A stretch of DNA of 64,000 nucleotides from Cytauxzoon felis (Eukaryota > Apicomplexa > Aconoidasida > Piroplasmida > Theileriidae). This document shows, piece after piece, positions 1,448 through 59,974 of the stretch; positions within the stretch are counted from its first letter, which is position 1, and the number at the start of each line of letters is the position of its first letter. The stretch is from the NCBI GenBank assembly GCA_020283715.1, contig JAIQCW010000317.1, positions 93,454 through 157,453 on the forward strand. The letters run 5' to 3'. A program made the position numbers and the translations under genes. A model generated the notes under the pieces. It worked only from the letters and a program-made list of their open reading frames with translations. It was not told the DNA's origin and ran no database searches.

Positions 1448-1449
1448 TT

Positions 1450-22900: not shown

Positions 22901-24332
22901 TTTTATATACAGCTAAATATGAACCACTAGGACTCCATTCTACTTTTTGATCAGCCCATGAACGTTTACCTTCAGCACGTTCTCTAGCACCATCATATAC
23001 TATTGATGTTTCATGCTCTAATGCATCAAACCAATGAACCTCTGTCTTATCAGCATAACGTATCACAAATTGATCTCTCATATTATCACCAACTAACCAC
23101 CAATCATTTATACCCTTACGTATAAAACCAAATGTTTTCAATGGAGGTATACATTTATTTTCATCACTCACTATCCTATCAAAATCATCCAATAATACTA
23201 TTTTAAATACATGATTCGCATCCAATTTATAATTATTCATATACTTCAATGCCATATTCGCCTCAAATGATGTCGAAAATGTCATAAACGCTATACCCTT
23301 TGTCATCTCATTCGAATTAGTAGGCAACTCCAATTTAAATTCAGCCTGCTGTACCTCACAACCTATAAATTTATATCATAATTAAAAAAACATCACAAAT
23401 GAAACTTTTATATTGATGGCCATTCACCTATCTTCGTCTTGCAGACGGCCTTCTCTATTTATTTCCCCTTCCAGCTCCCGTAGATCGCTTCCAGGTATTC
23501 CACTTGAGGTCCAATCTATATACCCGAGGTCTGTTCTTCCGGATACAGCGTGTTATGTATCATACCGCACTTATAACCGTCCTTTAAGCAGTGATCTTCT
23601 TTTTTGTCTATACAACATTTGCACTCATAAAATTTTGGCTTGGGTCCCTGAGTAGTTAGATTCGTTTCTTGGCCATTTTCGACCTTACCATTCTTAGAAT
23701 TTGGACCAGTAAACATTTTGGAGACGATGTAGAGAGAGTCTAATACCATCTGAAAAATTATTTTGCCAATTTCAGGTTTACACTCGCATTTAGCCTTCTT
23801 CAATTCATTCGTATACACCTCAACAAGTTTGAAGTAAAAGAGTATGCCCGTAGCTGATCTCAGGGAAGCGGAGGGGGAAGTAAATAGAAGAAGCTGACGG
23901 CAGGACCAAGAGAGGTGGATGAAAAATGGCATAAGACCTTCGTTAGACAGCAGATTAATTATAACATTTCTTCAGATGATAGAATGTATAGTTACCTTTC
24001 TTTTCTAGTTCTTTGGTGATGATTTTTTTGAGTACATCATGTAGACGTGTAAATCTATCTGGGCCGACTTCCGGTACACCGAGTACTGAAGTGATGATTG
24101 ACGGGTATATGAATAGAAATACCTATTAATGTATTTGGAAATGAATGTGAAAGAGTAATGGGTGGCTCATTCTCTGCATATTTTTTCATAACTTCTTGAT
24201 CGAAATCTTCATCATGATCGGATATCCAATCCATTAAACCAGATTCAAGTTCATCTAATAAAATAATAATATCAAGATGATTTAATTGTTTAAAATACCT
24301 GAAGTGAGATCAGATTCCAATATTTTTACCAT
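19959..24332 (-). CDS. EIF3B: Translation initiation factor eIF3 subunit B
   Basis: The gene begins at an ATG at 24332 (MVKILESDLTS joined to DELESGLMDWISDHDEDF across a short intron). A segment with GVPEVGPDRFTRLHDVLKK follows, then the RRM (GIAFMTFSTSFEANMALKYM) and the eIF3B beta-propeller (VEWSPSGSYLAVYKR, FQIQFSPGEEYLLTW, HMQWSPSGNYFILGG, IRWSSCGRYLATC). The conserved C-terminal tail has YCIWTFQGKLLYRV and FDFRPHPPSLLKS, then a charged helix ending KEEVLE. About ten exons are joined by GT/AG introns; the blocks come in the order known for eIF3B, a scaffold of the 43S pre-initiation complex. Long introns at 20369-20790, 21600-22450 and 23363-23995 carry palindromic elements, and the last also carries a piece of a Cys-rich antigen-type gene. 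Confidence 0.9.
20455..20705. repeat. Palindromic element in an eIF3B intron
   Basis: Modules: CACTCGCTGTTCCACCTGAG, CCTGCCGTCAGCTC, CTCTAAAGAGTAGAGCCACTC, CGGAGATCGTGGC, CCCGTAGCTGATCTCAGGG, GAAGCTGTCTGCAAGACGA and ACCTCAGGTGG. The two terminal hairpins belong to different types (CTGCCGTCAG versus TGTCTGCA), an example of module mixing. Confidence 0.85.
21640..21885. repeat. Palindromic element in an eIF3B intron
   Basis: Left end CGTCCTGCAGACAGCTTC and linker TATTTACTTCCCCTTCCAGC. The centre has CCACGATCTCCGGGAGTGG and CTCTTTAGAG; the right side has GGCACCACGCCTAGTGG, ACCTCAGGTGG and GTCTGCAGGACGA. Left and right CTGCAGAC-type hairpins are inverted relative to each other. Confidence 0.85.
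22145..22425. repeat. Palindromic element with CCGG array in the same eIF3B intron
   Basis: Contains TTCCACCTGAGGTC, CTGCCGCCAGCTCC, CGGATTCCCGTAGATCATCC and CCCGGAAGAAC / CCCCTAAGAAC units at about 22230-22300. These are followed by CCCGTAGCTGATCTCTGGG, GGCTGACGGCAGGACGACC and TCAGGTGGAAG. Confidence 0.8.
23420..23540. repeat. Palindromic half-element, 3' side of the Cys-rich fragment in eIF3B
   Basis: Contains TCTTGCAGACGGCC, TATTTATTTCCCCTTCCAGC, CCCGTAGATCGCTTCCAGG, CCACTTGAGGTCC and GAGGTCTGTTCTTCCGG, and then joins directly to coding-like sequence. Confidence 0.75.
23540..23850 (-). pseudogene. Fragment of a Cys-rich antigen-type gene inside an eIF3B intron
   Basis: About 95 codons on the minus strand (same strand as eIF3B) match the gene at 49336-50553 in order. 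Shared blocks are LVEVYTNELK versus LIEVYTEKLN, the KCECKP versus ECTCNKP region, GPNSKNGKVENG versus GSNSDNGKVENG, and KPKFYECKCC followed by CLKDGYKCG. It has no start of its own and no 3' end; both ends run into palindromic modules. It looks like a captured or duplicated internal piece and not a working gene. It sits wholly inside the intron 23363-23995. Confidence 0.75.
23845..23935. repeat. Palindromic half-element, 5' side of the Cys-rich fragment in eIF3B
   Basis: CCCGTAGCTGATCTCAGGG, GCGGAGGGGGAAGTAAATAG and AAGCTGACGGCAGGACC, in inverse orientation to the half-element on the other side of the gene fragment. Confidence 0.75.
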
Positions 24333-24411
24333 TTTTTTTACAATTACGATCAAGATGTTAGTTTCTATAGTATTCCACTCATAATTTAGAGTAACATAAT
24401 TTTTAAATCCA

Positions 24412-24555
24412 ATGGATATGTTAAATGAACAAAAGTATAATGTACTACGTTTTAATAAATTAATGGATTATTATCAACTACAAATTATATTATTCTATGA
24501 ACTACTTGGTCATTCTACTAATACATGGGGAATACGGTCATTTAAATCACTATAG
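24412..24555 (+). CDS. Small open frame, 47 residues, upstream of eIF3B (divergent)
   Basis: ATG to TAG with no internal stop, starting MDMLNEQKYNVLRFNK and containing YYQLQIILFYELLGHSTNTW. It begins 79 bp from the eIF3B start on the opposite strand. It looks more protein-like than random AT-rich frames (balanced polar and aromatic content), but no domain is recognised. It may equally be a chance frame in a divergent promoter. Confidence 0.3.
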   Translation: MDMLNEQKYNVLRFNKLMDYYQLQIILFYELLGHSTNTWGIRSFKSL

Positions 24556-25046
24556 TAAAAGTAGAAGATTGAATGATAGAAAGCTTAAATTAACATATAA
24601 TATTATTATTATCGCTACTTTATAAATTTCACTAGTCTAGACATTGACTTTACCATGAATAGTAGTTACCCCTGTATAACAAGCCTTGATATTTACTATT
24701 CTCTTACATTCCTTCCATTAAAACACAGTAAAATACATTATAATTCACCCTCACTTTAAATCATTTAAACTTCTACTATTTCTTTGGATTGGACATCTTC
24801 TAGTAGTTCGCATCCAACATCACGTTTGCATCCATACTGACCTTTATAGCTTGTAGTATATATTTAAAGTCTGGTAAATTTATCAATTTCTTTAAACCAC
24901 ATTTATAAATTGTGATTCTTTACAATGTTTTTACCCTTTGGTTTATAAAGCTTGTTTTTTTTAACAATGATAGCCTTGACGAGGCTACTACATACGAAAT
25001 CGCATAATATACCAGCATCTTCCACGGTATTTTAATTACCAGCTTT
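24556..25046. other. Intergenic, presumed COX10 promoter region
   Basis: About 490 bp of AT-rich sequence before the COX10 start. No palindromic modules, RNA gene or other open frame seen. Confidence 0.4.
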
Positions 25047-28000
25047 ATGAATTCTATATATTTAAAGGTGGTTAAAAAATTAATTTATTATCCAAGCCGA
25101 AATCGCAAAATTTTCTCGTTACTATAAGTGTATGTACCCCAATCTCTTCTTGAATTCTGTATCTTACTCTCTATTTTATAGCATTTGAGTAAAGTAAAAC
25201 TATCATTATGGGTCACTGCTACTGGAGCAAGCTCGTATTTGATGACATTACCCGTAATTTCATTGGACTTATTGAATACTTGTGGAGGTATATTCTTTTG
25301 TAGCACTGCCTCTCATACATTCAACCAAATTATCGAGCGAAAACAAGACGCATTGATGAAAAGGACATGTAACAGGTTTGTTGAAACTGTAATCTTCATC
25401 TGAAGCTTTGATGGGTGATGATGAAGGTGGTCCAAAGCTTATTGATGATGGTGGAGGTTTAACATTGGCAACAGAAATTACATTGGATATTAATGAAGGT
25501 ACTACTACTCTTTCTGAAGGTGAAACTACAACTTATACTAGTGGTGCCAGCGATAAGGTGAAAGTTAAGTATCAAAGTTCAGATTATAAAACCACAGGTT
25601 TCCAATTCTACATCCATACATTAGTAGCTGGAGGGAAGTTTACATTGAAGAAGGATATAAAGTATAATGCTAGTGGTGGAACTGCTCCATTACAAGGTGA
25701 AGATAATCCTATTCCAAACGTATATGAAGTTTATTATTACAAACATAATACTCAAGATAAAGGAGCTTTGAAGATTAAAACTTCTAGTGAGGCAAAGATA
25801 TTTTATAGTACAACTATTAATACTAATAGCCCATGGAAAAATGAAGAAAAAGAATCTGTCCCCAGTACTGAAACTGAACTTAAAGCTCTTGTTGAAAAAA
25901 TTAAAGATGAGGTTGAGATTAAAATTGATAAGATTAAGCCCTACGGCTGTAATAAACGAATTAATGTTGAAAAGACTCCTGGTAATGGGACTACAGTACC
26001 GCAAGGTTACGTTAGATATGAGCATAAACCTAAGAATATCGCTACAACTGATTCATTCAAATTAGGTCTCGTTAGGTATAAAGATATTCCATTGAAGTTC
26101 GAGCCAGCTCCTCCAACTACAGGTGTTACAGCAGTTTATGTATATTATAGTGACAGTGACAATACCCATGAGTTTCCATTAATTGTTTGCGTCAAAGTAT
26201 CACAAACTAGTCGTACGTATTATAAGAGAGGTAACACGTGGACAAATATTGGTGGTCAGCTTGCTGGTAAAGACCCAGAAAGTGATGAAGTCTCTTCTCT
26301 ACTTAACACTGAATTTAATAAAATCATCGATAAATATGAAATTAAGCTTGAGCAAATCGGTAATTACAAAGCAACCCCTCAGGGTGATATAATAACTCCT
26401 GAAGCAGTAGAGGAAAAAGGTGCTTCTCCTACATATAAAGGTTTTAAACATGAAGTTCCTAGTGGAAGTGTTATAAACCGCGTTACAATCCACAATCAAG
26501 TGATAACACAAATTAGCGCGGCCGATCTTCGAGAAAAACAACAGGTATTCGTATATTTTACTGAGAGCGAGGCTAATGGAAATCGTGAGAAACCACTCTT
26601 GATATGTCTTTCTAAAGATGGAATTAGCGATAATAAAACTGTTCCTGGTAACAATATTTGGTATAAGCGGAAGGAGAGTAATGGAAATTTTATATGGGAA
26701 AATGTTCCCAATGAATATGATAGAATAAAACCAGGTGGAACAAACGGTAACACAATTGAAACTAATCTTAAAAATCAACTTAGTACAATTAATGGTGCAG
26801 TTTCTGGTGATCCAGGTTATCCTAAATTAGAGCCCAATTTAAGTGATACAATGAAAAGTAATCCCGATATAGGAATTATGGATTTCTTCAATTTGTGAAT
26901 TATTAATCTTACCGTTGATGAAACAATTTCATATTATTGGAATAAATTCTTTTGTCTTGCCATTATTTCATCAACAGAGGTTCTTTACTCGCCGTTCCAC
27001 CTTTATTCGTCTTGCAGACAGCTTCCTCTATTTACTTCCCCCTTCGCTTCCCTGAGATCAGCTGCGGGTTCTCCACTTGAGGTTACATCACTAACTTCTT
27101 GTTCTTAGGGGTAGACATTCTCCGTTCTTCCGGGTTAAACTTTTTTTGTTCTTCCGGGTAGACATACCGAGGATGATCTACGGGAATCCGAAGGGAAATA
27201 AATAGAGAAGCTGTCTGCAAGACGAATAAAGGTGGACAGAAACTATGTTGAAACGGGTATTTATGATGAGGACCAAAAATAAATCTCTATCGTATTGAAT
27301 ATATCACAATTTATTTCAATATATAGGCCTTTACCTTCATCTTTAATAACACCAGCTCAGGCTGGTATGGTAGGATTGACATCATCAATTATTGGAGCAT
27401 CATTATTATACATGGGTGGTGGTATATACGCGTCATCATTAGCCATACTTAATATCGGTCTTTATACATTGGCGTATACACCTTTAAAAAGTATTTATAC
27501 ATGCAAATTCATATTATATTATATTTATAGGGAAAACGGAATGGAATACACATATCGGATCATTAGTAGGAAGCATACCACCACTCATCGGAACACTCGC
27601 AGCGGGTGTAAGTTTTTATACACTCTATCAACTTCCATTCGACGACCGATCACTATCACTCCCACTCGCCGTGGTGGTTCTTTTAATTAGTTATCCCTCA
27701 AGTTCCCATAGATCACTTTCGGGTTCCACTTGTGGTTACATAATCACTAACTTTCTGTTCTTCCGGGTTGACACTATTTGTTCCTCCGGGTAGAATTCCT
27801 GTTCTTAGGGGTTAATAAAATACCGAAGATGATCTACGGGAATCCGAGGGGAACTAAATAGAAGAGCTCCATGCAATGGGAAAGAGAGTAGGATTGGACT
27901 TTATGCGAAACAGCCATACCCTCCTTAGATTTCGCTTATACTTCGCTTCCATATTTGATAATGTAATCTACAGGGTACATTGATGTCTCATGGTCCATGG

Positions 28001-28640: not shown

Positions 28641-28791
28641 TTTGGGTTGATAGAATTCCATTCGTTTGATATATATAACTTCATATAGGCACATATTATT
28701 TTTGATTGGTTGTACATCATATTATGTGAATATTACGGAAAAGAAACGAGATTGAGATATTAATTTATAATGTGTTTTATGATTTACATGT

Positions 28792-29576: not shown

Positions 29577-32500
29577 TTAAGTTTTATTACTACTAGTGGT
29601 AGTAGTACTTGTTGATCCAGGTTTAACCTTTGATGCTGGATGTTGACTTAATTCTAATGGTACAATATTATCTGTAGATAATAGTAATTGTTTAAGATCA
29701 TAAAATATCCCCGAGTCTTCTTCAGTTACAAATGATATAGCGTTGCCCTTCAATCCAGCACGTCCAGTACGACCTATTGTATTATAATTTGAACACCAAT
29801 ACATATAAACATACCAATTCTATGAGTATAAGTTTGTATATCTTTAGGCATGTCAAAATTGATCACATATTTAACACCTTCTACATCAACACCACGACCA
29901 GCAACATCCGTGGCAACCAATATATCATAATCACCCGATTTAAAACTCGACATCGCCTCCTCCCTACTCTCTTGAGTTTTACCCCCATGCAATGATACAG
30001 CACTGTAATAATTTATTATATAGAGTAGCTTCAAATGATGTCCAATCACTGTGCCTCTTATAGAGAGATATCCACTTGAGGTCCAATCTACTCTTCTTAC
30101 ACTCCATTCGAGGTCGTCCTGCCGTCAGCTCTTCCAATTACTTATCCCTGAAGGGTAGAGCCACTCCCAGAGATCGTGGCGATGATAATGATTGGACCTC
30201 AGGTGGAACCCGCAGCTGATCTCAGGGAAGCGAAGGGGGAAGTAAATAGAGAAGGCCACACGGCGAGTGTAAGACGAGGATGGTGATTGGACCTTGAGTG
30301 GAGTTCTTTCTGTATTGTTACATGAAACAAACCGATAGTTCATTTTGATGATGGTTTTTGCGATGACATCTGCGACTTTTTTGAGATTGGTAAAGATGAT
30401 GATTGGTGGTTCGCATGTTGCGAGAATTTCTTCAAGCCTTTGTTTCTTTTTAGATTCAGGAATGAATTCTAATTGTTGTGTAATTGAACGTTTACCACCA
30501 CCGACATCTCCAATTGATATAAAAGCTGGAGCTCTTAAATATTTCCTATAGAAAATTATAATATATAAATACATTCCGTAAGTAATCTATGGGAAATTAA
30601 TAGGAGTAAATGAAAGACAATATCTGAGATCCAATTCTTTACAACCACTGTTTCCACTCGCTTCCACCGTAGGTCCAATCACTATCTTCCTTCGTCTTGC
30701 AGACAGCCTCTCTATTTATCTATCTCTAAAGAGTAGAGCCACTCCCAGAGATCGTGGCGATGATGAAGGTTATAGTTATTGGACCTCAAGTGGATGTGGA
30801 ACCCGAGAACGATCTCCGGGAGTTTGAGGGGGAAGTAATTAGGAAAGCTGTCTGCAGGACGAGTAGACGCAGGATAGACCTCGAGTGGAGAGCTCCATGC
30901 AATGGAAAATGAAGGTGGAGATGATATATAGATTGGACCCGGAGTAGATATATGTTAATACGAGAGAAAATTATGTGGCGTCCCCATAATTATGGTGTAT
31001 TTTATCCCCATATAAAATAATGTTTTTTTCAAATACCCATCACATGAGAACATAGTAAATACACATGTTATAAGCATTAATAATACAGAAAATTGATTGA
31101 TTGATCCTACAAATCCTACATTGCTCTGCTTAGCTCCACCACCAAATGCTGTGGACTCCATAAATTCCTGAACAGTATTGAAGACAACTCCAAAAAATCC
31201 AACGACATAAGGATTATCCTTGACATGTCTACCGATAAATCCTTCAGGAAAGTGTAATGTACTGAAGAATACATAAAGACAAATCAAATAAGGGACACCA
31301 CCTATAAGCCACATATAATGATACAAAGTTCTATTTACTTTTATCTGATCATGAGGTGTATCCCATGAATTATAATCCTGTTTGAAATCAATCCATCGTT
31401 TCCCAGGGCCTACTGGACCGATTTTAGGAAGTTCCAAATCTATTATCGCTAGACCAAGATTTGGTAAAGCGCAAATGACGACAATCCACAAGTCAATTTT
31501 CTCCGCTCTCTCGGGATCAATTAAAGAATATGGAGAAATCATGGGGTAAAAAGCATAAATTGTCCCTAATGAAAATGTTAACATTAATATGGGGGACCAG
31601 TGATAGGGGTTGTCGAAACATAATAATTCCTTGAATGTACCTTCCCGCTTTAATATAACTTCAATCAAGTGTTTAGCTTGAGTGCCAATATCAGTAGAAC
31701 TATTATCATTTGGATCTCCTCTCACGGCGCTAGTTTCTTCCCATTTCTTAGATGTATGATACCATGTATCACTACTATTCTCATAAATATATATTAATAA
31801 TGGATTATCGAGTTTCGGATGACCTGTGGCAGAATTAAACTCATAATATACCCATAAATTTTTGGTATTAATATCTACACTTTTGTCAGGTAGTCCCTTA
31901 AGTTCTTTACCGTTGTGCTTATATTTAACCGTGCCACTTACACTACCAGAATGAGTGTATGCCACATATCCTTGAGGTACCTTATTACCATCACTATCCT
32001 GCTTCGCAACGGTAATGTCTGTACCGCCTGCATTAGATTTGTATCCAGACCCGGTGTTATCAAGTAAAATTTCATGTATATCTTTGAGCTCATTAAGTTT
32101 ATTTGCAAGTGGCTGACCTGATTGTCCAGCAGTATTCGAATCTGGATCTATTTTATTAAGTGCTGAACCAGCGTCGTTCCACGTTTGACCCCTCGTATAA
32201 TATGTCTGAGCGGGTGAACCACTACTTTTCTTAACACAAACAATCAATGGGAATTCGTGACCCGTATCATCGGTTTTATAATATACATAAACAGCTGAAA
32301 CATTTTCCGTAAATGGAATTCCACTCAATAAAACATCATTGTGCATGACAAAACCTAATTTGAATTGAGAACCACCAGTTTGAAGTGAATGCTTATATCT
32401 CTTGTAACCAGTTGGTACTCCATTACTAGGAGTGGTTTCTTGAGCAACTTGAATTTTGGAACCATCAGCACTTGCTTTGTATGTATCATTACCTGACTGG

Positions 32501-35500
32501 GTATTAGTATGTTCAATTCTAATTTCATATTTAACTTTGAGCCTGTCAAGTTCATTTTTAAGTGGACCTTCTTGAGAACCTGCATTTTGATCATCTGGAT
32601 CTACAGTGGAAAGTTTAGATTCGACAGACCATGAGAAACCTCTGGTATAATACGTTCGTACAGTAGATGATATTTTAATGCATACGATTAGGGGGAATTC
32701 GTGACCCGTATCATCGGTTTTATAATATACATAAAGGGCTTGAACACCTACAGTTTCTGGTATTCCATTCAATAAAAGATCATTGTGAATGACGAAACCT
32801 AATTTGAAGCTACCACCTTGAAGTTTATGTTCAAATCTCTTGTAACCTTGTGGTACACCATCGTTCGTCTTATCCTTCTTTTCAACTCTAATATCATCAC
32901 CAGCCGCACTTGCTTTGTATGTTTTAGGAGAACTACCGCTTTGTACTTCTTTAATATCAATTTCATATATATCTTTGAGTGCCTCAAGTTTATTTCCAAG
33001 TTTAGAATCAACGGATCCAGTTGACGGATCTGGATCCACATCTTTAAGAGAAGGATCTTCAGACCATGAGAAACCTCTGGTATAATATGTACGAGTCTGT
33101 GCATCTTTCTTAACACAAACGATCAGCGGAAACTTATGATCATCGTCTTGACCGCTTCCACGATAATATACATAAATGGCCTCAGCACTCCCTGAATAGG
33201 ATAGTCCATTTACAATAACACCGTTATGTTTAAATATAATTGTGCCATTAATAGAAGTTGTGTGTTTATATGATATATATCCTTGAGGTACTTTACTATT
33301 TCCTGCGGCTTCGTATTCTATCTTCTCAACCTCAACATATTTATCCTTCGTTCTATATTTAATTGCCTTAGCAGAAGTAGCTTCCTCCGGCCTCTTGTCC
33401 AATTTAATTACATAATCGTTACCGGGGGTAATAGTAATTGGTTGAGCACTAGCGGCTTCAAGGTCTGCTGCAGTGACTGCATTTTGTCCAGAAGGATCAC
33501 TTGGATTTTTATTGGCAAAAGTATTCGTATCTTCACTCCAACTATTTTGATCTCCACCTGCTGTGTACCACTTGTTCTTAGAAGTATCTGAAGGAGGACC
33601 CTCAGATATACATATTACTTTAGGCTTGGTTGTATCACCATCCTTATAATAAACATATACAGCTCCCCCTTGTCTAATTTCCTTTTTCATATTATCACCC
33701 AATTGAGGTTGCCCATTTGTACTCTTCATAGTGACATCACTGTGAGTTATCTTTTTAAGTGTAAATGCTTGACCATCACTATTAGAATGTTTATAGCCAA
33801 CCCATGTAGTACTAGGAGTACCACCAACAGCAGTTTTAACTTCTTTCTTCTCCACTTGAATCGTTACACCTCCAGATCTATAGAAACCTCCACTATCACC
33901 AGTTACTTCTTTAGGCGCTTGACTTATATCAATTTCAACGTCTGTACCTTCAATCCCGCGGCGCAAGCGTATTCCACTACCTCCACCACCCAGTTGCTTC
34001 ACTTCGTTCCACGTCCATAACGCGCCAGTGAGAGCAAGAAAGAATGATGTGAATGCATATTGTACGACAACCAATTTATAATCATAATCATTCCAAAAGT
34101 ATTTGTTATAAAAATAATTATAGGATTTGTGAACAATGAATGTGACGAAAGATGAGGTCGGCATTCCAGCTCCGTACATTGTTGCATTGAAATTAACAGC
34201 AAATCCAAAGTTGGATGAGAATCCATTGGCAAAGGTAATTGAAACAACAGACCAATAGAATGATTCAAAATTCCCATACTCTTCACCACTAATGAATATA
34301 AAGTAAGATATAACCGTAGCAAGGAACATAATCCATATTGCGATACATGAAATTATCCTTTTAAATTTCATTTTATTATCATCCTCAGCCTTCACCGCAT
34401 CAGTAATCCATGCTACTACGTTTGCAAGAAATGTAGAAATTAAACTTGATAATTCCATGGGAGTGTGAATTTTATAAATGAACAATGGTACAGTGCATTG
34501 TGGAAAATGAAATCTCTTGATGACATGATTGGCACAGAGCATAGCTATCCGATGAGGAGTTAACATAACGAATCCATTTAAAAACATACAAACTACGCCC
34601 AAAGATATCATCTTCTAACATTTTTACACATGTCATCCATCATTGTTACTCCAAATTATCCCTCTCCCCATTTATTTAAAATGAACGTTCCAATCGTCGT
34701 GGTAACCTCTTCTATTTACTTCCCCCTCCAGTTCCCATAGATAACTTTTGGGAATTTAAAATTATATTAAATCCCCATATTTATGTGTATTTTATGCAAA
34801 CTTACTTTGTTAGTTTTTCTACGGCGGGTGGCATTGTGGCGGAGAACATTTGTGTGATTCTGTATCTTCTATGACCAGCTTTAGTACTTAATTCCTATAA
34901 AAATTGATTAAACTAATCATGTTTTAATCAACTCAACCTGTTCTAATGCTGTAGCTTCATCTTCATTTTTAAGATTTGTCGTTGGTATACAATCAAGAAT
35001 ATCATTTACAACATCCTCAAATCCCATATCAATCATACGATCAGCTTCATCTAATATAACATAATTACATTGATTTAATACTGTATATGCACGATCTAAA
35101 CAATCTTTAATACGACCAGGTGTACCCACAATAACTTCAGCACTATATATAAATTTAGAATCATCAATAAATAAGAATAACTAACCCCCTTCTAAGTTCA
35201 AATGCCTGAGCCTCAGCACTCCTACCACCAACAACCGCTACCGTTCTACACTTACAATACGTAGCAAATTTATTTGTCTCATCAAATATCTGCAAAGCCA
35301 ATTCCCTATAATGAAATTTATATAGTAAACTAAACCGAACCCGAGGTCTTCCAGTCAACGTTCCACCTGAGGTCCAATCCTACTCTTCTTCCACTCGCCG
35401 TGGAGGCCTCTTCTAATTACTTCCCCCTCAAACTCCCGTAGATCGTTCTCGGGTTCCACCTGAGGTTACATCCATAACTCCACCTTCTTCACTGCCACGA

Positions 35501-39773: not shown

Positions 39774-39789
39774 CAATAACCTTTTTATT

Positions 39790-40070: not shown

Positions 40071-40564
40071 AGTTTGTATAACATTCTAAGACAACGGCAG
40101 AATTGCTGTATTATTTCGGTGAAGTTTGATATAGTATTGACTTTTTAATTATAATTTTAAATATATCAATATTTTGATTATAGTAATTTATTATATATAT
40201 TATATTATCAAAGTTTAATGTATTATTGGGCAGCACCATAATTATGTGGCGTGCCCCATTATTTCATCATTTTACAACGATTACGATATTAATGCACTGA
40301 TGTAGAATGAATGTAAATAGTTTATATACAATGGATATTGATGTATTATTCTATTTACATATTCAATTACTGATGTTGTAATATATTATTAAAGTATCCA
40401 TCAATAATTTGTGTTTACATGAATTGAAGTATAGTGAGATATAATACTAGAGTAATAATATTATTAATTTTATATAATTATATATATAATTATTATTTCT
40501 TTAAATGACGGGGGAGGGGGATAATTTGGAATAATAAAAATGGAACCAAGGATATGGATATAAA
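40071..40564. other. AT-rich region upstream of the antigen gene at 40565
   Basis: About 490 bp. A GC-containing imperfect stem-loop lies at about 40231-40260 (GGGCAGCACC ... GGCGTGCCCC). The conserved antigen-family 5' flank (GGGGGAGGGGGATAATTTGG) lies at 40510-40530. The rest is very AT-rich, with no frame I can support. Confidence 0.5.
40503..40540 (+). promoter_or_regulatory. Conserved 5' flank shared with the PRP28-nested antigen gene
   Basis: GGGGGAGGGGGATAATTTGG followed by AATAATAAAAATGG, about 25-60 bp before the start at 40565; counterpart at 34645-34685 on the other strand. Confidence 0.5.
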
Positions 40565-42649: not shown

Positions 42650-42769
42650 TACTCATCAATAAATATAACAACTGATAATAAAAAACTTACTCACCGTAAC
42701 ACCACATAATTATTCACTTGCACTATAAGATTTAATTAACCCCACTATTATAATCATGTCTTAATACAG

Positions 42770-43045
42770 GTTCCACTCGAGGTCCAATACTTGCCTTCAC
42801 CCGAGGTTGTCTTGCAGACAGCTCTCCACCTGAGGTTCATCCTGCCGTCAGCTTCCTCTATTTGGTTATCCCTTCGCTTCCCTGAGATCAGCTACGGGTC
42901 CACTTGAGGTCTAATCTTACTCTTCATTCCATCTACAACATCCTTGCCACGATCTCTGGGAGTGGTTCTACTCTTTAGAGGGAGGTAATTAGAAAAGCTC
43001 CATGCAATGGAAATGTGAGTTGGATTGGATTCCAGGTGGAGAGCT
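42770..43045. repeat. Palindromic element between antigen genes
   Basis: CCACTCGAGGTCC, TCTTGCAGACAGCTC, CCACCTGAGGTTC, CTGCCGTCAGCTTCC, CCCTGAGATCAGCTACGGG, CCACGATCTCTGGGAGTGG, CTCTTTAGAG, AGCTCCATGCAATGG, CAGGTGG. Confidence 0.85.
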
Positions 43046-43129: not shown

Positions 43130-43954
43130 TTGGATATTGGATTGGATATGTACGAACAAAGCAATGGAAAATTGAAAAACCGCGGTTATGGTACAATGAA
43201 GAAAGATACTGATAAAGGTATTGATCAAGATAATGAACCTAACAACAAGGGTATTCTAAGTTTATTTAGTTTTGAACGTGATGGTACTGCTGGAGAAAAT
43301 CTTGGCCATGCCGCGGATTGGTCGCCTATAGGCATGTTGGCTGCATCATTGGGGACGGTTTATTTTTTCTATCCTTCCATCTCTCCATACCAACTCGTTG
43401 AGGATGATATTATGGGTAAAAAGATCGATTTATGGATCTTGTTCACTGCTGCCATACCTAATTTTGGGGTTGCACTTCTGGATATAATTGAGGAAGCGGC
43501 AGGTGGTGGTACTCAGGATTTACGTGTCGGTCCTAGCGGCAGATCATGGACGCAAAGAGATTCTTTGCCTTGGCAACTGTCATGGCTAGCTATAATACCT
43601 TATTTAACCTGCATCTATATTTTTCTATCATTTATGAATTAACCGGATGGTTTTTTTGGTAGACATATGAAGAGTAAGAAATGGCTTGTATATATCGTCT
43701 GTATAACATTCAACTTCTTCCAAGAGTGGTTAGAATCCATCGGATTTTCAGGAGCAGGCGCGCAAATACAGGATGATGCAGGACAATCCATAAAAAGTGA
43801 GGACACTAGCGGTACACATACTGGCACATATACAAGACCCGTTCATTGCTACCAAGATACAGATACGACCAACGGCACTGTTACAACCGCAGGTGAAGAC
43901 AAACCATTTTTAGATGATGGAAACATAACAGGTAGAATTAATTTCAAAACTTGA
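43130..43954 (+). pseudogene. C-terminal half of an ENT-like antigen relative, interrupted by a stop
   Basis: Encodes a polar start, then DWSPIGMLAASLGTVYFFYP, SISPYQLVEDDIMGKKIDLW, AAIPNFGVALLDIIEE and YLTCIYIFLSFMN. A TAA stop at 43640-43642 falls exactly where the intact relatives read on into their PEGFIGRH block. The same frame continues after the stop with PDGFFGRHMKSKK, TFNFFQEWLESIGFSGAG and a new polar tail of about 60 residues (ending GRINFKT) not present in the relatives. The N-terminal TM half and the repeat loop are absent. It is a broken, truncated paralogue. Confidence 0.7.
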
Positions 43955-44590: not shown

Positions 44591-44660
44591 GTGGAGAAGT
44601 ATATTAAAGATAGATAGTGATATATAATTAATCAAGTAATAGATTACAATGTAATGTATG

Positions 44661-48766: not shown

Positions 48767-51700
48767 ATGATCGATGATAAAGATTTAGATATCACCGATC
48801 TTATTAATCGTATACCAAATTCACATTTTATCGCTATCGATTGTGGTATGTTTATATCAATTACTCAAATGTGTATACATTATAATATAGAATTTAGTGG
48901 TATCGATCCTAAACCAAAATCTATAAAATCTCTTAGTGAATATCTCTTAACATTAAAAACTAACGCAGAAAAATATACATTACGTTTGTCTTAAATTTCA
49001 AACCTTATATAATTTTCATAAAATTCCCACAATTTAGTACAAATCGGCTTCTGTCTTGCTGAATATGTCAATACCGTACAAGGACATAAATGGATACTCT
49101 ATCCTTACAACTTTTATACACTCTCAACTAATGTACGTTTATACATTGATCCAATGAAATGAAGTAACCATTGAATTACACGAGTGTAATGAATCTATAC
49201 CCGAAGTATAATCCACCTTCAACTTCCCACTCACCGTGGAGGCTTCTCCGCCTGACGTCGTCTTGCAGACAGCTTCTCTATTTAGTTCCCCTCAAACTCC
49301 CGTAGATCGTTCTCGGGTAGTCCACTTGAGGTCCAATGACTATGCTTCGGCCACGATCTTCCTGGTTATCTAATTGCTTGAGGTTTGTTGGTAAGGAGGA
49401 GGCAAAGAAATGTGAACTGGATGATAATTATACATGCCGCAAAGCTAGGTATGCAAAAGATTCTAATTGTAATAAGAATAAGGTTAATACGTTGAAGAGT
49501 AAATATGATGCGATGATTAAAGCGGCTTCTGATAAATTGAAGGGAGTTACAGATAATATAAATAGTGTAAATGGTTGTAATAGTATTGGCACAGCATGTA
49601 CTACAAATACTGAATGTTCAAGTACTTCAACTTGTTCAGGTCAACCATGTACCTGCAATGGACAAGAATGTAATTGTACACCTACTACTACAGATAATCC
49701 CAACGGTGTCTTTAAGAAATTATGCGATATAATGTGTTGCAATGGAACTACATGTAATTGTAATAGTGGGAAGTGTAATTCTATATCCACATTTTGTACT
49801 GAAGTGAAGAATTTCACGGATCTAGTGAATGAGGTTATTAAAAATGCAACAACAACCTCTGCTGAATCTACACCTCCTCCAACATGTAACTGTAAGGGTA
49901 AGAACTGTGAATATTGTAAAACCCGTCGCTTCATTAAACTCATTGAGGTGTATACGGAGAAGTTGAATGGAAATAAAGAATGTACATGCAATAAACCAGA
50001 TTGGGGTGATGCAGTCATTGATATAACGTTAGACGTCGGATTTACTGTCATTAAATACTTCTTCAATATGTTTAATGGTTCAAATTCTGATAATGGTAAG
50101 GTCGAAAATGGCAAAGGAACAGGTGAAACTTCTCAAAAATCCAAGCCAAAATTTTATGAGTGCAAGTGTTGCAACGGTAAAAAAGAAAACTGCTTAAAGG
50201 ATGGAGAACATTGTGGAATCTCTAATATTATGAAAGAGTGGTTTTGTTGCAAGGGTTGCAGATGTCTTGTTATTTCTGGGGAGGGAAATTCGGATGTGGG
50301 GCAAAATGGAAAATCCGAAAATTCGGATCAACCCCATAAATTATGTAAATGCTTAGTGAAGGTATTTAAACAAGTGGCGGGAAAGTTAGGGATATGTAAG
50401 GATAAGAATCAGAAATGTCCTTGTTCTTGTGCTTCCGATTCCTGCAGCGTTGTCTACTATGACATTGTTTTCCACTCGCTTCCACCTGAGGTTACAATCC
50501 ACCTCTCTTCTTTCCACTCGCCGTGGAGGCCTCTTCCAATTACCTATCTCTAAAGAGTAGAGCCACTCCCAGAGATCGTGGCGGTGAGAAGGTAGTGAAG
50601 AGGGTAGTGATGGATCATCCATCATGGGAATGATGGAAGATGGTTCTAAGGATGTATTGGATGTAACCTCAAGTGGAACCCGAAGCTGATCTCAGGGAAG
50701 CGGAGGGACAACTAAATAGAAGAGCTCCATGCAATGGAAAAGATGTAACTTCGGGTATTAATTATCGTGTTTTTTTATTCTTATAGTTTTCAAATATAAA
50801 TTATATATATATTAGATTACTACAACTGTTGTATTAAATGATACATTGAAATGGTTGAGGAGTAATGGTTTTAGTTTGGATCGTTGGATTGATGAAGGGT
50901 AATTTGAAATTTTATTTGTAATTGACGTTTTTTTTTCAGTATTGAATTTAAACGTTTAGTTGATATAAGAAATGATGAATCTATTGGTACTGTTACAAAA
51001 AGGCATAGGAAGAATGATTTACATCATATCTTAGAAGCTTTAATTGAATCTAAGAAACCTATTGTATTCCATAATGGTTTACTTGATATATTTCATATTT
51101 ATGATAAATTTATTGGTTCTATACCTGATAATCATGTCGATATATCTAAAGAATTAACTCGGTATATTTAAAAAAAATTTATATTATTTCTTTATAGATT
51201 ATTTGTTGGTGGTGTATTTGATACTAAAGTTATTGCTAAATATATTTGTGAAATATGTGAATATAATATATTACGGTATGTTGGGTTATAGTGTTTTTTA
51301 TCCCTACATTACCCCCATAGTAATACAACATTACCTAATTTACATACGAATTTGAATAGGTATATAAATAATTATATATGTATTAATAAATATAGTTTAC
51401 ATGATATGAAGAAATTAACAGAAATATCACAAGATCGTTTAAATTTTAATTATATAGATAAAGTGAATAGATTATATTTAATAATATTATTAAATTCATT
51501 AGGAAACAGGTGATATAAATAAAAAATATTATCATGAAGCAGGTTTTGATGCTACAGTAACCGCTATGGTGTGTTAATGAATTGATAAAGAAATTATTTT
51601 ACCCCATTTAGATTTTTTGTGTGGAGTTACAAATATTAGCGGATTTAGATAAAATAAATAGTTTAGATTTATTAAATTGTGATGAAACAAAGTAGGTTTT

Positions 51701-52608: not shown

Positions 52609-55439
52609 ATGGGTAATTTTAGTATCGGCGAGCATAGCTCTATACGCCGATATTATATCGACACTAGTCAGTCTATAAATCGAACGCCACTTATACCATT
52701 GACGCAGGTATAATTTTCCTTCCAAGACGTTTAATTTAATTATTTTTACCTTTAGGAAGTTACTGATGGTCTAAAGTTATATGTAGTAGCGCGTAAGAAC
52801 TATTTGACATACGATAGGCCATACATCGCACCTCCATTATTCCCAAACGTACCACAGGAGGTAGTTTTATTACCTACAGAGCGTCTTGGTGATTTTTTTT
52901 GATCGTGGTATACTATCTACTGACGATGAAGATGAGACATCACCGCCATTACAATCAAAATCTCGTTCCATTTTACACCGTTCAAATACTCCAAATAAAT
53001 TATTCTCTATAAAACACCATAAATCAAGCGAAGACAATCTAAGTTCCATAAGAAGTAGAGGGAAACGAGATGGCGCCTCTCTCCATCATCCAGACTCGTC
53101 TAGACGAAGCGGTGCCAGAGTAATAAGTAGTAAAGATTTACGTTTGTATCAGTTCAATTATGCTCAAGATGGTCATGATACATTAGCTGCTGATGTTCCT
53201 CATGAAGATAATGATATACCTATCGAGGACGATATCCCTCCCATCGAGGATAACGAATTTCCTCCAGAGGAAGACAATTTCTTCCTTGAAGATGTTGATC
53301 ATCCTCTGGAAGATAATAATTTCATACAAGATGAAGTTGAAGAGTTTAGGAGTGATCGGAAAACACCTAAGCGTCAAGTACAAAAAGGTAGCTCCAACAA
53401 GACACCAATTACCTCAGTGGATAAGAGCGTTAAAGTGTCGATTGGCTCAGCTAGGAATCGTAAATCGATATCAAAGATTATAAACTCTGAACCAAGTGGT
53501 TTGTATTATAAATTAGGTCGAGATTTAAAAAATAAGGCCTTAAGTTCAAATAATTCAATAAATGGTAGCGAATTATCACACATTTCATTGTATAACCCAC
53601 CACCAATAGATGATACTACAAAGAAACCTGAAGTTACCTTCGATACTCACGATGATAATGAAGGTATCGATTATTTTGAAGAGGATGAACTTTTACACGA
53701 AACTGGGGATAATTATCCCGATAATGGGGAAGTTTTTGAGGAAGATGGGGATAATAAAAGAACATCAAAGGTATATAAAGTACGTAAAGCATTATCTAGT
53801 GCAGCTTTGTTAAATAGTTGGTATATAGCATATGGATCGGATAGGGATAGTGGTGATGTGAATACTATAGACTGGTCATTATTGACGGAATATAATAAGC
53901 GTAATTCACGGTATCCTAGGAGGTCGAGATTACCACCAACACAACATTGGTCATCGTATAGGGTACCTGATGGTTCATCAGTGGTATTTATAATTGGTAT
54001 ATCAACGTCGGAAGATGATAACACTACATCTACGGGTGATGTACCATTGGATAAATTATTTGACCTCAATGAGGATAATACCACAACATTCGTACCCAAT
54101 ACGTCATTAGTATTAATGGATAATAAGGGTGAATCACATGTGAAGTTAGTTGAGGATACATCAGACAATAAATTATTGACACTTGAAGATAAGAGGAAGC
54201 CTAATACAACAGCTGTTACACCAACAGCTACGGCTACGAAAAAAGCAAAGAGTAAAACCAAAGCCAAGAAAAGTAGAAATAATGGGTTGACCGTAGAAGA
54301 AGCATTGGAATATCTTAAAAATAAACCAGCCATATATAAAGATGATGAATCTATACAAGGCACATCTCCTCTTTTACATATCGAAGATTCATCCACCAAT
54401 CAACCAGAGGTCCAATCCAACTCTCTTTCCACTAGCCGTGGAGGCTATCCACCTGAGGTTATAACCTCGCGTTCTCCTGCAGAGAGCTCTTCCAATTACC
54501 TCCCCGTAAACGGTATAGCCACTCCCGGAGATCGTGGTGAAGATGAAGGTAGTGATGGAAGTAGAGTTAAGGACGTAACCTCGAGTGGAAAATCCGAGAC
54601 GATCCATGGGAGTCGAGGTGAGGTAAATAGAGAGGCCTCCACGGCTAGTGGAATCAAGAATCGTACTAGACCTCGAGTGGAACCCGCAGCTGATCTCGGG
54701 GAAGCGGAGGGGGAACTAAATAGAAGAGCTGACGGCAGGACTAAACCTCAAGCGGATAACCGTCTCCATGACAAAGTTTCATCTAAGCCTAAAAAATCAC
54801 CGAAAGGTAAAAAAGACAAAGTACTAACAGTAAATGATGCACTAGATATATTGAATAAAGATGATGGTAAACAAACTAGACGAAAATCAATTGAACCTAA
54901 CCTCGTATGTTAAATTTTATAGTGTTTTTATCCCCACAATTATAGGGTTTAAATCCTGATTCTAGTTTGATGCATGAAGGTAAATTACTGAAATATAAAT
55001 CTGTACATCGTCCGGAAGATGTGGAAACAATTGTAGATGAGGGTATTAAGGTGAGTTTTAAAATTCCTTTATTAAACCCCATCCCCATAGTTTAAGCCAA
55101 TGATATTAACAAGCCGATGTCGTACCTCTAATGTTATTATACCTAAGAATAGTATATTAGATTTTGGTAATATAAAATCAAATTTTATTGTATGTTTAAA
55201 AAAATACTTCATCATTCATCATCTCCATAGTGCGTTTATTTATATTCTGGGGTTGATATAAAAATATCGGGTATGGGTAAAGAAATTACAGTCAATGAAA
55301 AATCCATGTTCTTTCTACCAATTAATAATGTATGGTCAATTAAAAATAATAGCAGGTAAATTAACATTAAAAAACCCAATAACCCCATAATTATAGGGTA
55401 ACTGATGCAAAAATGGTGATAATATTTGTAAATGTATAA
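52609..55439 (+). CDS. CENPC: CENP-C (kinetochore protein, C-terminal cupin), with an apparent frameshift
   Basis: Exon 1 52609-52707 (MGNFSIGEHSSIRRYYIDTS) and exon 2 from 52756. The frame slips by one at a run of eight T (52893-52900) and continues as DRGILSTDDEDE. A long acidic region follows. The CENP-C signature-like motif is RYPRRSRLPPTQHWSSYRV (basic cluster, PP, W), close to the R-R-S-R...P..YW motif that binds CENP-A nucleosomes. The last exons, joined in phase, encode a Mif2-type cupin: TSNVIIPKNSILDFGNI, VYLYSGVDIKISGMGKEI, SMFFLPINNVWSIKNNS and AKMVIIFVNV-stop at 55437-55439. CENP-C links centromeric nucleosomes to the outer kinetochore. About 115 codons (54405-54760) derive from a palindromic element inserted in frame between motif and cupin. 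Confidence 0.8.
54405..54760 (+). repeat. Palindromic element inserted in frame in the CENP-C coding exon
   Basis: Carries the usual modules: CCAGAGGTCCAATCC, CCACTAGCCGTGGAGGC, CCACCTGAGGTTA, CTCCTGCAGAGAGCTC, GGTATAGCCACTCCCGGAG, ATCGTGG, ACCTCGAGTGG, AGAGGCCTCCACGGCTAGTG, CAGCTGATCTCGGGGAAGCG and GAGCTGACGGCAGGAC. It has no stop codon in the host frame. Translated pieces ([37 protein letters not shown]) recur as frames of non-coding copies elsewhere. Compared with those, this copy has small changes (for example CTCCCCGTAAACGG in place of CTATCTCTAAAGAG) that remove the CTCTTTAGAG hairpin. Confidence 0.9.
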
Positions 55440-55502
55440 AATGTAGAATAATAATTTTTAATAATAAATTAATCTATAAAATTTTTTAATCCTAATTGAT
55501 TT

Positions 55503-58500
55503 TTAAATTTGTTTAAATATAAATTTACCCTCTAATATTAATTTTTGTTGGAAGATTTTACCAGATGCCTATAATAAAATATTATTATTCAACATTAATT
55601 TACATTTTAATACCTTCCTTTTAGATTTTATTATATTTGCGATAAATCTAATTAAATTGTCCTCTTGGCTAACAACCTTAATGTAAATCTGGGGTAAATT
55701 TTTATTATTGTGGGGAATATTTTCCAACCTTTACATCGATAGTTGAATGCCATTTATTAGATAATTTTGAAAATGCAGGATTCTCAATCTCTATATTAGG
55801 GTCATATGGTTCTTCCTATAAAATAAATATATTAATCATCCAATAACTCTCTCCAATGAAGGTCTTCACACTCGCCGTTCCACCTGAGGTCCATCTTTTC
55901 CATTGCATGGAGCTCTTCTATTTAGTTCCCCCTTCGCTTCCCTGAGATCAGCTGCGGGTTTTCCACTTGAGGTCTCCACCTGAGGTTATAATCACTACTA
56001 TCTCAACGCCACAATCTCTGGGAGTGGCTCTACTCTTTAGAGATAGGTAATTGGAAGAGCTGTCTGCAAGATAATTTACTGACATCTAACTGTTTTATTC
56101 ATGGATAATTCTAGCGACTTTCAAAATTTATATGCCGAAATATTATAGCATTAAGCTTAGAAGAAATTTTATTATGATTAGGATTGTTCTTCTCTGGTAG
56201 ACCTCCTGATGCATCTACTTTATCCAAATTCGAATGTTTTACCCACTTCTTACCTTTGCCGTACCAATTATTTGAGCTATCATCACTCCTCTTAAAATAC
56301 AGAAGTAGAGGTGTTTCAAGGTTAGGATTACCCTGTCCATCATCCTCGTAAAATACCCATACTTTCTTGTTCTGTTCAATAGTTATCCCAGTGGGAACTT
56401 TAGGCAACGCTACACCATTATGTTTAAATGTAACATTAGTGATATTACCAGTACATTTATGCTCATACGCCACATATCCTGCTATAGTAGTATTCTTCTC
56501 AACAGCAATTACTCTCTTCGAAGGATCAGGATCATTACCCGTTACATATGTAATACCATTCGTAGTGTCTTTGGCAACATAATCTAATTTTAGAACATAA
56601 TCTGGTTTTTTATAACCTTCATCATTATCGGTAAGGTCAGTTTTAATTTTGCCGAGGTTTTCTGCAAGTTGACTAATTTGGCCTGGGGCTATACTATCAT
56701 ATTCCTTTTTAGTATTTGCATCTTCCCATGTATAATTAGGACTACTTCCCGTACGTTTATACCATTTATTATTAGGGCTAGCCGATTCACTTTCAGCTAA
56801 ACATATCAAAAGAGGTTTCTTACGATCATTTTCCGCGTCAGTCTTTTCAAAATATACATATACATATTGTTTATTTTCAATAGTCCCACCAGTTCCTAAG
56901 TTCCCAACATTTACTATATGTCCGTGTATAGTCATACGGTTTATAGTTTTATCAGCAGCTTTAAGATCATGTTTAAAACCTTGATAACCGCTATTTGGAC
57001 CAACTGTTGTAACAGTAATTGTATCAGCAGTAGACTGAGGACGTCCTTTGTAACCAGTAGCAGGTTGATTATCCTTCTCGAGCTTAACTTCGTATTTAAC
57101 TATGAGTTGGCCAAGTGGACCACTAAGTTTATCAGCAACTCCAGAAGAAGTTGGACTGTGGCTAGCAAGGGCAGGTATTTGCGTCCATCGATTCCCTCTC
57201 TTGTAATATTTCCTAGTACTATCATTGCCTGTATCAACGCAAACAATTAGAGGAAATTCATGGTAGGGATCACCTGCACTGTCACTATAATATACATAAA
57301 CTGCTTGAACATCAGTAGGAAGATTTTCAGAAAATTTCAATGGAATATCTTTATACCTAACGAGACCTAATTTGAAGTCACTTGTAGAGTAATGCTTATA
57401 TCTAATATAACCAGTTGGTACTTTTTGAGGCTCATCAGTATTGGTCTTCTTTTCAACAGTAATTTCGGAACCAGCCGCATTTGCTTTGTATGATTTATTA
57501 CCTTCACTGAGGCCAGGAACCTCTTTAATATTGATTTCATATTTATCTTTGAGTTTCTCAAGTTCATTTCTAATCTTATCAATCTCAGTAGCTACTGTTG
57601 ATTCTGGATTTACTTGATTAAGGGAAGGTTCAACATTCCACGTTTGTCCTCTCGTATAATATGTTTGACCAACTTGCTTCTTAACACAAACAATCAGTGG
57701 AAATTGATGATCACGATCATTTTCCTTCTCGTAATATACATAAACTGCTGTAACAGTCTCCGAAGGAGTTGGATTGAGCGTCAACGGAATATCATTATAC
57801 CTAACAAAACCTAATGTGAATGGATCTCCGTTATTAAGTTTATGATCATATCTAATATAACCAGATGGTACATGAGCTGTATTTCCTTTAGCAACAGTAA
57901 TTACTCTCTTACGAGGATCATTATTATCGCCTGTCACATATTTAATATTGTCATTGCCTGCAAGAACATAATCTAATTTTAAAATATATCCTAATGGAGG
58001 ATAACCTTGATCATTAGGATTTTGAAGTTCTTGTTTAATTCCTTCGAGTTTTCCTTTAAGTGTAGCATTAATTGTACCTGGTGCTATATCACTATAACCA
58101 GTTTCAGCAGAAACATCTTTCCATGTCTTATTTGGTTGACGTGAATACCATTTATTACTAGCATCAGCTCTACCAGTTTGTGATAAACATATCAATAGAG
58201 GTTTCTCTAGTACAGGGGTACCATTCATTGGAAAATATACGTATACGTATTTTTTACCATCAATAGTTTCACCATTGCTTAATCCAGGAATTTCTACTAT
58301 CTGTCCATGTATTGTTATGCGATTGATTTCCCTACCGGAACCTCCAAGATCATGTTTAAAACCTTTATATGTATTATTAGAATCAGTAAATGATGTAACA
58401 GTAATATTTTGATTAGAAGAATCAGGACGTGCTGTGTATGTTGGAGTTGGTTGATTAGTTTTTTCAAGCTTAACTTCAAATTTAACTTTAACACCATTAA

Positions 58501-59974
58501 GTGCGGTTTGAAGATTACCAAGATCAGCACCTTTTAAAGTTTCCGGGCCTTTATTATCAAGGTTGCCAATTGTTGTCCATTGATTCCCCCTTTCATAATA
58601 AGTATGGGATGATCCAGCGCTAACACAAACAATAATGGGAATTGATGTTCAGTATCATTATCTTTGTGATAATATACATAAACTGCTTTAACATTTTCAG
58701 TTCCACCAGCTGCAATTACTATACCGTTCAACACTTGATCATTATGTTTAACTGAACCTAATGTGAATCTAGGAGTAGTTTGTGAATCCTTAGGTTTATG
58801 ATCATATCTAATGTAACCATTTGGTACTCCTTTAGTGGGATTATTCTCCACCTTAGTAACATTAATTTGATTAGATCCAGATCCATATAAAGCTTCACTC
58901 CCTGATGCAGTTTGAGTAGGCGTTACACTTGCATCAATTTCAATTGATGGTGTATCATTACTATTATTTTTACCATCCTTAATGATAATATTATCCTCTT
59001 GCAGAGTGCTCTTCTTTTTTGCTATCTCTAAAGAGTATAACCACTCCCAGAGATCGTGGCGAGGTTGAGTACATGACCTCAAGTGGAATACCCGTAGCTG
59101 ATCTCAGGGAAGCGAAGGGGGAAGTAAATAGAGAAGCCACCACGGCGAGTGGCGAGACGACCTCAGGTAGAAAGCTGCCGGCATGAATCAAGTGGTTGGA
59201 ATGAATAAGGTCTATAACCTTCAAATGATAACTTATGTCCTTCATCGTTGGTCAACAAACATTTGAGACCTTTAAATTCGTTAATCCATTGGAGATCTGA
59301 ATATGAGTGATATGGGTTCATAATGGATTTACTAGTATATTGCAGTTTAGTTCATTTGAAATGTCGCGCAATTTAATGGCCAATGCGGCGCTATTACCTG
59401 AGGTTATAAAGATGATGGAGGATGTGTTCATACATTTCATGTTTTTAGAATCCATAGATTCTAATAATGAATTGAATGCGTCTATAACGATTAACTTGGG
59501 TTCAGTTTGTATTAAACTTGTGTTTGTCCCGCATTTATATTCAGATTGTGCGATACCATCGAGGATATTTATGAACTCGACACATGAAATGGTAGAGATT
59601 ATATAAAGCCTTCTAAACATGTTGCTGATGTCATTTTCGATGTTTTTAATCTGATGAGGATGAAATTTAATATAGAATTTTACGTACATAACCAAATCCA
59701 TTAAGATAATTATAGCAGATTTCATACATTTTGTACTCATTTATAGCACCATCTAGAGTTTATAGGAGCTCTTAATGTCTAAAGACATGACATACTTGTA
59801 GTAATGATAATTACATCATTATTAGGATTACTATACAGATGATCGATTATAATATACATTAAAATCTATAGAATTTCATCATCTTCCAGTGTTGTTACAA
59901 GGTACCTCTGAGTTTATAAAATGGTCTTCACTGAAGAATTCAATAATCTCTCTAGAAGAGTCTCCATCGAACAT
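55503..59974 (-). CDS. RAD51-paralogue-like RecA-fold protein
   Basis: The C-terminal exons 55811-55739, 55688-55614 and 55568-55503 read PYDPNIEIENPAFSKLSNKW, STIDVKIYIKVVSQEDNLIR and FIANIIKSKRKASGKIFQQK, ending LEGKFIFKQI. That is the RAD51-family end pattern (PA...W...v..r......R...v.KS......F.i...G). Upstream (59740-59318) is a Walker B-like EPKLIVIDAFNSLL and LNCNILVNP, then (59319-59219, shifted frame) DLQWINEFKGLKCLL. An exon starting near DGAINEYKMYEICYNYL occupies the Walker A position but lacks GK(S/T). A start at 59974 (MFDGDSSREIIEFF) is tentative. The frame change near 59320 is either an unrecognised splice or an indel. Intron 55812-59218 (about 3.4 kb) contains an antigen-type repeat gene on the same strand. 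Confidence 0.5.
55865..56075. repeat. Palindromic element, 3' side of the nested antigen in the RAD51-like gene
   Basis: CACTCGCCGTTCCACC, CCATTGCATGGAGCTC, CCTGAGATCAGCTGCGGG, CCACTTGAGGTC, CCACCTGAGGTTA, CCACAATCTCTGGGAGTGG, CTCTTTAGAG, GAGCTGTCTGCAAGA. Confidence 0.85.
56111..59075 (-). pseudogene. Antigen-type repeat gene nested in the RAD51-like intron, frameshifted
   Basis: Two frames, 59075-58534 and 58530-56111, together encode about 880 residues of six to seven repeat units ([51 protein letters not shown], with alternating units YVYVYF...KPLLICL...KWY). One base is missing near 58636, within the FPLIVCV coding that relatives keep, and this breaks the frame. Both TM halves of the complete antigens are absent; the 5' end fuses into palindromic sequence (CTCTTGCAGAGTGCTC) and the 3' end stops at INFESR. 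It is on the same strand as its host. Read as a truncated, inactive repeat store or decayed paralogue. Confidence 0.7.
58990..59185. repeat. Palindromic element, 5' side of the nested antigen in the RAD51-like gene
   Basis: CTCTTGCAGAGTGCTC, CTCTAAAGAGTATAACCACTC, AGAGATCGTGGCG, ACCTCAAGTGG, CCCGTAGCTGATCTCAGGG, GCCACCACGGCGAGTGG, ACCTCAGGTAG. Confidence 0.82.

Follow-up and report, generated by a model that had tools for sequence, protein, structure and literature searches.

Same-strand nesting of two multicopy gene families in introns of housekeeping genes of Cytauxzoon felis

Protein-coding genes that lie within an intron of another gene are known from human, mouse and Drosophila, and in human and mouse most such pairs are on opposite strands (220 of 296 and 193 of 248 pairs, respectively; PMC8467205, the part available to us). 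We analysed a window of 64,000 nucleotides from the piroplasm Cytauxzoon felis (bases 93454-157453 of the 157-kb contig JAIQCW010000317.1; the assembly, GCA_020283715.1, comprises 8.62 Mb in 181 contigs), together with related loci elsewhere in the genome, and found members of two gene families lying as guests in the introns of other genes. We label these families REP (repeat/transmembrane-like) and Cys-rich VES-like. As in the known nested genes, a protein-coding gene sits within the intron of another and the host exons join in frame as one gene, firmly in nine cases and weakly for a fifth host of the window and for a locus that we call L041. Unlike the known nested genes, all cases found here are in the sense orientation and the guests come from two dispersed multicopy families. 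Since human and mouse nested genes mostly lie opposite to their hosts, sense-only nesting is unusual and, if true for multicopy surface-type families in a compact parasite genome, would mean a tolerance rule different from that of mammalian nested genes.

The ves1 and ves2 genes of Babesia are likewise multicopy families that move between loci, are largely interstitial in B. bovis and include shortened forms (PMC4066756, available part). However, ves2 is described as a derivative of the 5' ends of ves1, whereas the short form seen here is a 3' half, and the available part of the same paper holds no description of ves copies in other genes' introns. No Pfam match at E 0.1 pointed to a VESA-type relation for four full-length members of the guest families, in a search of limited sensitivity that included no direct VESA comparison. 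In titles and the beginnings of abstracts, with few subscription journals covered, we found no description of antigen-type families in other genes' introns in piroplasms.

Pack-MITEs (MITE, miniature inverted-repeat transposable element) and foldback elements carry a gene or gene fragment between inverted repeats. Similarly, inverted repeats flank the cargo in five Cys-rich cassettes described below; the guest in COX10, which has no left arm, does not fit. Unlike such elements, the outer arms differ between copies of one cassette (in one pair, in the XPD and EF-hand hosts), which suggests that cores have been exchanged and not that a unit has transposed. In addition, introner elements of Amoebophrya are abundant repeats with inverted repeats in alveolate introns (PMC7789003, available part). 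The palindromic repeat that accompanies our guests differs from these, as the splice sites are GT..AG, lie 38-146 nt beyond the outermost recognised repeat module, where one is present, and are not part of the element (nine confirmed guest introns). The median length of other short introns is 42 nt (27 predicted introns of 20-110 nt), and together these observations indicate that the element sits in introns and does not make them.

Nested guests, their hosts and their orientation

Guest and host were co-oriented in every case that we found. All nine firm cases are sense (two-sided binomial p 0.004), and the count becomes 11 of 11 when the fifth window host and L041 are included (p 0.001). As a control, for each of the 47 loci not counted as nested we recorded the strand of the closest coding-like open frame to the left and to the right, with the guest families masked for elements. 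Neighbours were present at 36 of these loci, 24 in the same and 20 in the opposite orientation (L041 gives two of the former), while 11 of the 47 had none. The nested guests differ from this control (9/9 versus 24/44, Fisher p 0.01), in a comparison whose neighbours are partly dependent and include some small open frames. The nested cases found beyond the window are sense as well, and among the loci surveyed, as far as flanks were readable, no antisense case was found. The window alone gives five of five (two-sided p 0.06), which is weak; it is the wider sample, and not these five, that makes the strand pattern interesting.

The original prediction placed antigen-type guests, intact to fragmentary, in introns of eIF3B, COX10, PRP28, a TOE1-like gene and a RAD51-like gene. 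We joined the host exons by hand and then tested the junctions. For the first four hosts a same-strand guest, an in-phase exon join and homology on both sides were all found. The eIF3B intron (23363-23995, minus strand, GTAACT..TTATAG, phase 1) joins KELEKK to GCEVQQ, and a PDB eIF3B alignment of residues 52-200 crosses the junction at residue 86. Its guest is a Cys-rich fragment (23471-23836, minus) that matches the TOE1 guest (tblastn E 1.6e-21) and is flanked by inverted A modules of the repeat within 23434-23510 and 23847-23905. The COX10 intron (25376-27326, plus, GTTTGT..ATATAG) joins MKRTCNR to PLPSS within a UbiA domain, whose match of 10-144 crosses residue 65; its guest is a REP open frame of 501 codons (25393-26898, plus) corresponding to the middle of longer REP members. 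In PRP28 the intron (30546-34805, minus, GTAAGT..CTATAG, phase 2) joins VEKLTK to KYLRAP, with a Prp28/DDX23 alignment of 6-96 crossing residue 30. By open frame and family search it holds an intact REP gene (30955-34614, minus), a single open frame of 1219 codons from stop to stop.

The fourth host is a TOE1/PARN-like nuclease of the CAF1 family with an intron at 49133-50815 (plus, GTACGT..TATTAG, phase 0) and the junction TLSTN/ITTTVV. CAF1 matches it in two stretches (E 2.5e-49) and PARN at a whole-sequence E of 3.1e-9, the stretch that covers the junction (14-121, residue 89) alone giving 0.0087. The Cys-rich guest (49330-50553, plus) is a 3' half only; its 5' breakpoint near 49363 is fused to a repeat element, and the tail of its open frame also derives from the element. 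For the fifth host, the RAD51-like identity found no support in Pfam, PDB or protein-database searches, none of which returned a homolog; one of them used a hand-joined query with uncertain exons. An in-phase join, judged by eye from the frames, was obtained at 55817-59261 (minus) and not at the 55812-59218 proposed earlier, and it is weak because there is no homolog. A family scan placed a REP tract here, with an 845-codon open frame and a 5' remnant (56111-58990, minus). The five guests, three on the minus and two on the plus strand, thus all follow their hosts and range from intact to fragmentary as described. When 34 guest-family proteins were searched against the window (E 1e-3), seven guest tracts emerged, of which these five are intronic and two were judged intergenic; no further intronic tract, and none in antisense, was found.

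To find cases outside the window, we surveyed flanking sequence at 57 listed loci, four of which are copies from the window and one of which (L062) duplicates L015, and at two further places added later. Host-like segments were read by eye on both strands for most loci, and flanks were often missing or unreadable; the number of nested cases is a minimum, and reading by eye could overlook some on either strand. Five firm cases emerged, all sense. In the OLA1 host (GTATGT..TTTTAG), the protein after joining aligns with Obg-like ATPase 1 over 7-162. In the adenylate kinase (AK) host (GTAAGT..ATATAG, phase 0), the ADK profile is matched over 10-51 before the guest and over 45-94 after it, and in the XPD host (GTAATT..ATTTAG, phase 2) the HBB profile is matched over 2-90 before and 123-188 after. 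The WDR83-like host (GTATGT..ATATAG) has WD40 exons on either side of the junction RKHNHG/GKVLCC, and the EF-hand host (GTTTGT..CTATAG) has EF-hand pairs on either side of IVNE/IWDHIC. The names XPD and WDR83 are provisional, given from domain matches and our own reading of the protein sequences. The firm cases share in-phase GT..AG junctions and homology on both sides, and they concern unrelated genes on six different contigs.

A sixth, probable nested case outside the window is L041, which joins with GTATGT..AAATAG around a sense guest and has no homolog. At L013 (C20), a REP gene directly follows an exon whose end is close to a donor-like site and which we read as ribosomal protein L5; this may be a further nested case. 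Nested status was rejected by eye for L003, where OMP decarboxylase begins beside the guest, and for L036, L038, L039, L050, L058, L062, L066, L069 and L073/L074. A flank is missing or unreadable at L013, L027, L063, L064, L065, L067, L068, L071, L072 and L075, and at those of the 11 neighbourless control loci that are not named here.

Palindromic repeat and cassette architecture

The repeat that accompanies the guests is a composite of hairpin-like modules, which we label A, B, c1-c4 and d. The window has 35 clusters of it, one per 1.8 kb, and one of its 15-mers occurs in 2094 exact copies in the genome, about one per 4 kb, compared with none for the reversed control. The presence of so abundant a repeat beside a guest says little by itself. 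Nor did the statement that palindromic elements border every case hold, as the COX10 guest has a recognised element on its 3' side only (27007-27225). The available part of a survey of 64 genomes, among them five of Babesia, four of Theileria and one of Cytauxzoon, reports no class II transposons and set its MITE candidates aside as probable false positives (PMC9141347); a palindromic repeat of very high abundance in this group matters for that reason. One further element (54427-54756) lies in a long open frame (52865-54913, plus) and leaves it unbroken, so that it is either translated or part of a stop-free intron.

The arrangement of the modules is more informative than their presence. In host sense, the five Cys-rich nested guests each show a minus-oriented left arm, the guest, and a right arm whose last modules are plus-oriented. 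At TOE1, for example, module search placed a left arm of c4-, c2-, A- and d- at 49225-49332 (minus) and a right composite of d-, c4-, B-, d+, A+ and c3+ at 50481-50739 (no single strand), in which the minus modules come first. Read by eye, the B modules look mixed in orientation relative to the host.

Several boundaries are common to unlinked loci. Among 16 distinct Cys-rich loci with an alignable 5' boundary, eight extend upstream as longer genes and eight break. By eye, all eight truncated loci share a breakpoint within a few bases, after which the sequence continues as element or as other sequence. Three of these eight are nested (TOE1, EF-hand and XPD), compared with none found among the eight longer ones. 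The fusion sequences recur as well, one being common to TOE1, EF-hand and L037 and another to XPD and L040, and by eye TOE1, L037, EF-hand and XPD are also alike at their 3' ends. A single block of 1265 bp (76% identity) is common to the introns of XPD and EF-hand; it runs from TCTATTTA to TAAATAGA or TAATTAGA, where the A modules have their outer edges. Directly outside this block the hairpins are different modules; in this one pair, then, the core is common up to the A modules and the ends of the unit are not conserved. A common core that ends at A modules between differing outer hairpins fits core copying between resident elements better than insertion of a whole unit. This suggests an exchange of cores between arms, although in a single pair the outer hairpins could instead be fast-changing. 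We consider the cassette architecture to be real. The proposal that some process places cassettes of the guest families in introns is supported by the shared chimeric junctions, by element-bounded blocks in unrelated introns and by the five further nested cases.

Possible origins of the sense bias

The explanation that we favour, tentatively and at slightly less than an even chance, is that cassettes spread between repeat arms, that arms exchange at intronic repeats, and that antisense outcomes are lost. The two multicopy families would spread through the genome as cassettes between the arms of the abundant palindromic repeat. A repeat already resident in an intron would serve as a docking site, where ectopic recombination or gene conversion between arms could replace the core of the repeat with a guest. 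Such a core swap should yield both orientations, and antisense outcomes would be lost through harm to the host transcript, either by decoy splice acceptors or by head-on or antisense transcription. A wider form of this idea is possible, and we rate it as rather doubtful: that housekeeping introns are docking sites of a genome-wide cassette exchange in which thousands of palindromic elements swap cores, including surface-type genes, with only co-directional ones persisting and part of the variant repertoire coming to lie inside essential genes. If true, introns may hold a hidden store of variant genes overlooked by gene finders that treat introns as empty, and clear predictions for transcripts and for strains follow from the cassette idea.

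We examined both strands of ten guest sequences with splice-site matrices built from 27 predicted introns and found 14 acceptor-like sites in sense and 35 in antisense (p 0.004). The excess of acceptors on the antisense strand favours selection against antisense guests, and selection on the host transcript is our best guess for the cause of the sense bias.

Several observations weigh against this explanation. Outside the discovery window, the sense pattern amounts to only five of five firm cases (two-sided p 0.06). In the same ten guests, donor-like sites are nearly equal on the two strands (16 sense, 20 antisense), and AATAAA/ATTAAA is commoner in sense (55 versus 21), which by the usual argument disfavours sense guests. 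The 2.5-fold difference in acceptors seems too small on its own to produce nine of nine, and mammalian L1 insertions interfere more when they are in sense (PMC3192792, available part). Avoidance of head-on transcription from a guest's own promoter cannot explain the seven of ten guests that have no intact or demonstrated start. With respect to the arms, COX10 has no left arm, no A module was recognised in the left arm at WDR83, and the arms at AK, PRP28 and OLA1 are less regular than those of the Cys-rich guests. Finally, no transposase or target-site duplication was identified, neither having been the aim of a search.

Among the other explanations, the one that survives best is a neutral landing, in which dispersing families enter introns in proportion to the space these offer and the strand pattern is chance. 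Repeats and guests do occur between genes too, the window has an element cluster for every 1.8 kb, and the sample of nested cases is small. Nevertheless, nine firm sense guests in nine (p 0.004) stand against 24 same and 20 opposite neighbours for the non-nested loci, and we regard chance as unlikely.

The guests may also differ among themselves in what they are. Three REP guests are intact (PRP28, 1219 codons; OLA1, 1186; AK, 971), and each has a conserved start-proximal block, CTTTAAATRAYGGGGGAGAGGGATAATTTGG in our reading of the alignment, which lies just upstream of REP-family start codons. At PRP28 it was located by pattern hit and alignment at 34647-34667 (minus; G000:C162:128100-128120), just upstream of the guest open frame. 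The block has 24 copies in the genome and none in the control, for a pattern derived from these same genes, and it precedes non-nested REP genes too. In 12 aligned copies, mean identity was 0.54 over the 30 bases immediately preceding the motif by which the copies were selected, compared with 0.29 over the 30 bases upstream of those. The block might serve as a core promoter or as a leader, and the intact guests may be autonomous genes. Of the remaining seven guests, at least six (that is, at least six of ten overall) are truncated or fragmentary, and these are probably either inert or a donor archive.

A silent donor archive would be made of intronic pieces from which segmental gene conversion copies sequence into expressed members and which are kept by linkage to essential genes. 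The truncated pieces with their sharp common boundaries would suit this role, and segmental gene conversion is described as a major mechanism for the ves genes of B. bovis (PMC7485966, available part). On the other hand, no donor-recipient tract was demonstrated here, and an archive alone leaves the sense orientation unexplained; as the principal explanation it seems distinctly unlikely.

We also consider it improbable that the guests are expressed from the host promoter through intron retention, alternative splicing or exon fusion, so that only sense copies work. This would account for the orientation and for the several long open frames retained. Moreover, in eight of the nine introns at least one AG would bring the guest into frame with the host, and one such AG, inside the A module, is common to eIF3B and XPD. 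These AGs are mostly poor acceptors, however, and none is common to all: across the nine introns tested, we found no common splice acceptor linking host to guest, and PRP28 has no in-frame AG at all. The intact REP guests carry their own conserved start block, and truncation affects no fewer than six of the ten guests. The earlier suggestion that guests use host transcription or splicing gains no support here and keeps a small probability. An assembly or gene-model artefact, for which 181 contigs and thousands of repeats give some cause, is very improbable in view of in-phase GT..AG junctions with two-sided homology in unrelated genes on six contigs.

Guest families and neighbouring genes

Both guest families appear to be lineage-specific as well as multicopy. 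Four genome-wide searches, which overlap, gave at least 85, 53, 121 and 107 matched stretches. The PRP28 guest had no match at E 0.001 among 8000 candidates scored in a protein database, and 14 guest-family frames had none above the curated cut-off in Pfam, where only DUF4973, EAF and TPR_ZSWIM8 appeared below threshold. A lectin-like PDB match was weak (E 0.02). The description of the guests as antigens is a judgement from their appearance alone.

An intergenic REP paralog of 703 codons lies at 40538-42649 (plus; open frame and family search), its tract reaching from 40538 to 42811 in the 34-protein scan, and a REP-family piece follows directly downstream (43130-43816, plus). In addition, a tandem array of a third multicopy family, membrane-protein-like in appearance, occupies 878-6813 (minus); two of its frames were scanned and had no Pfam match above the cut-off. 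Rfam gave no match in the window at the gathering threshold.

The RRN3 gene (60927-63635, plus) has its nearest homolog in Theileria equi (49% identity), followed by T. orientalis and Babesia duncani, and these closest homologs in Theileria and Babesia indicate a piroplasm source. In the same gene a DUF3223 domain is fused to RRN3, and the same fusion is given for nine of the ten homologs listed, namely all nine from piroplasms.

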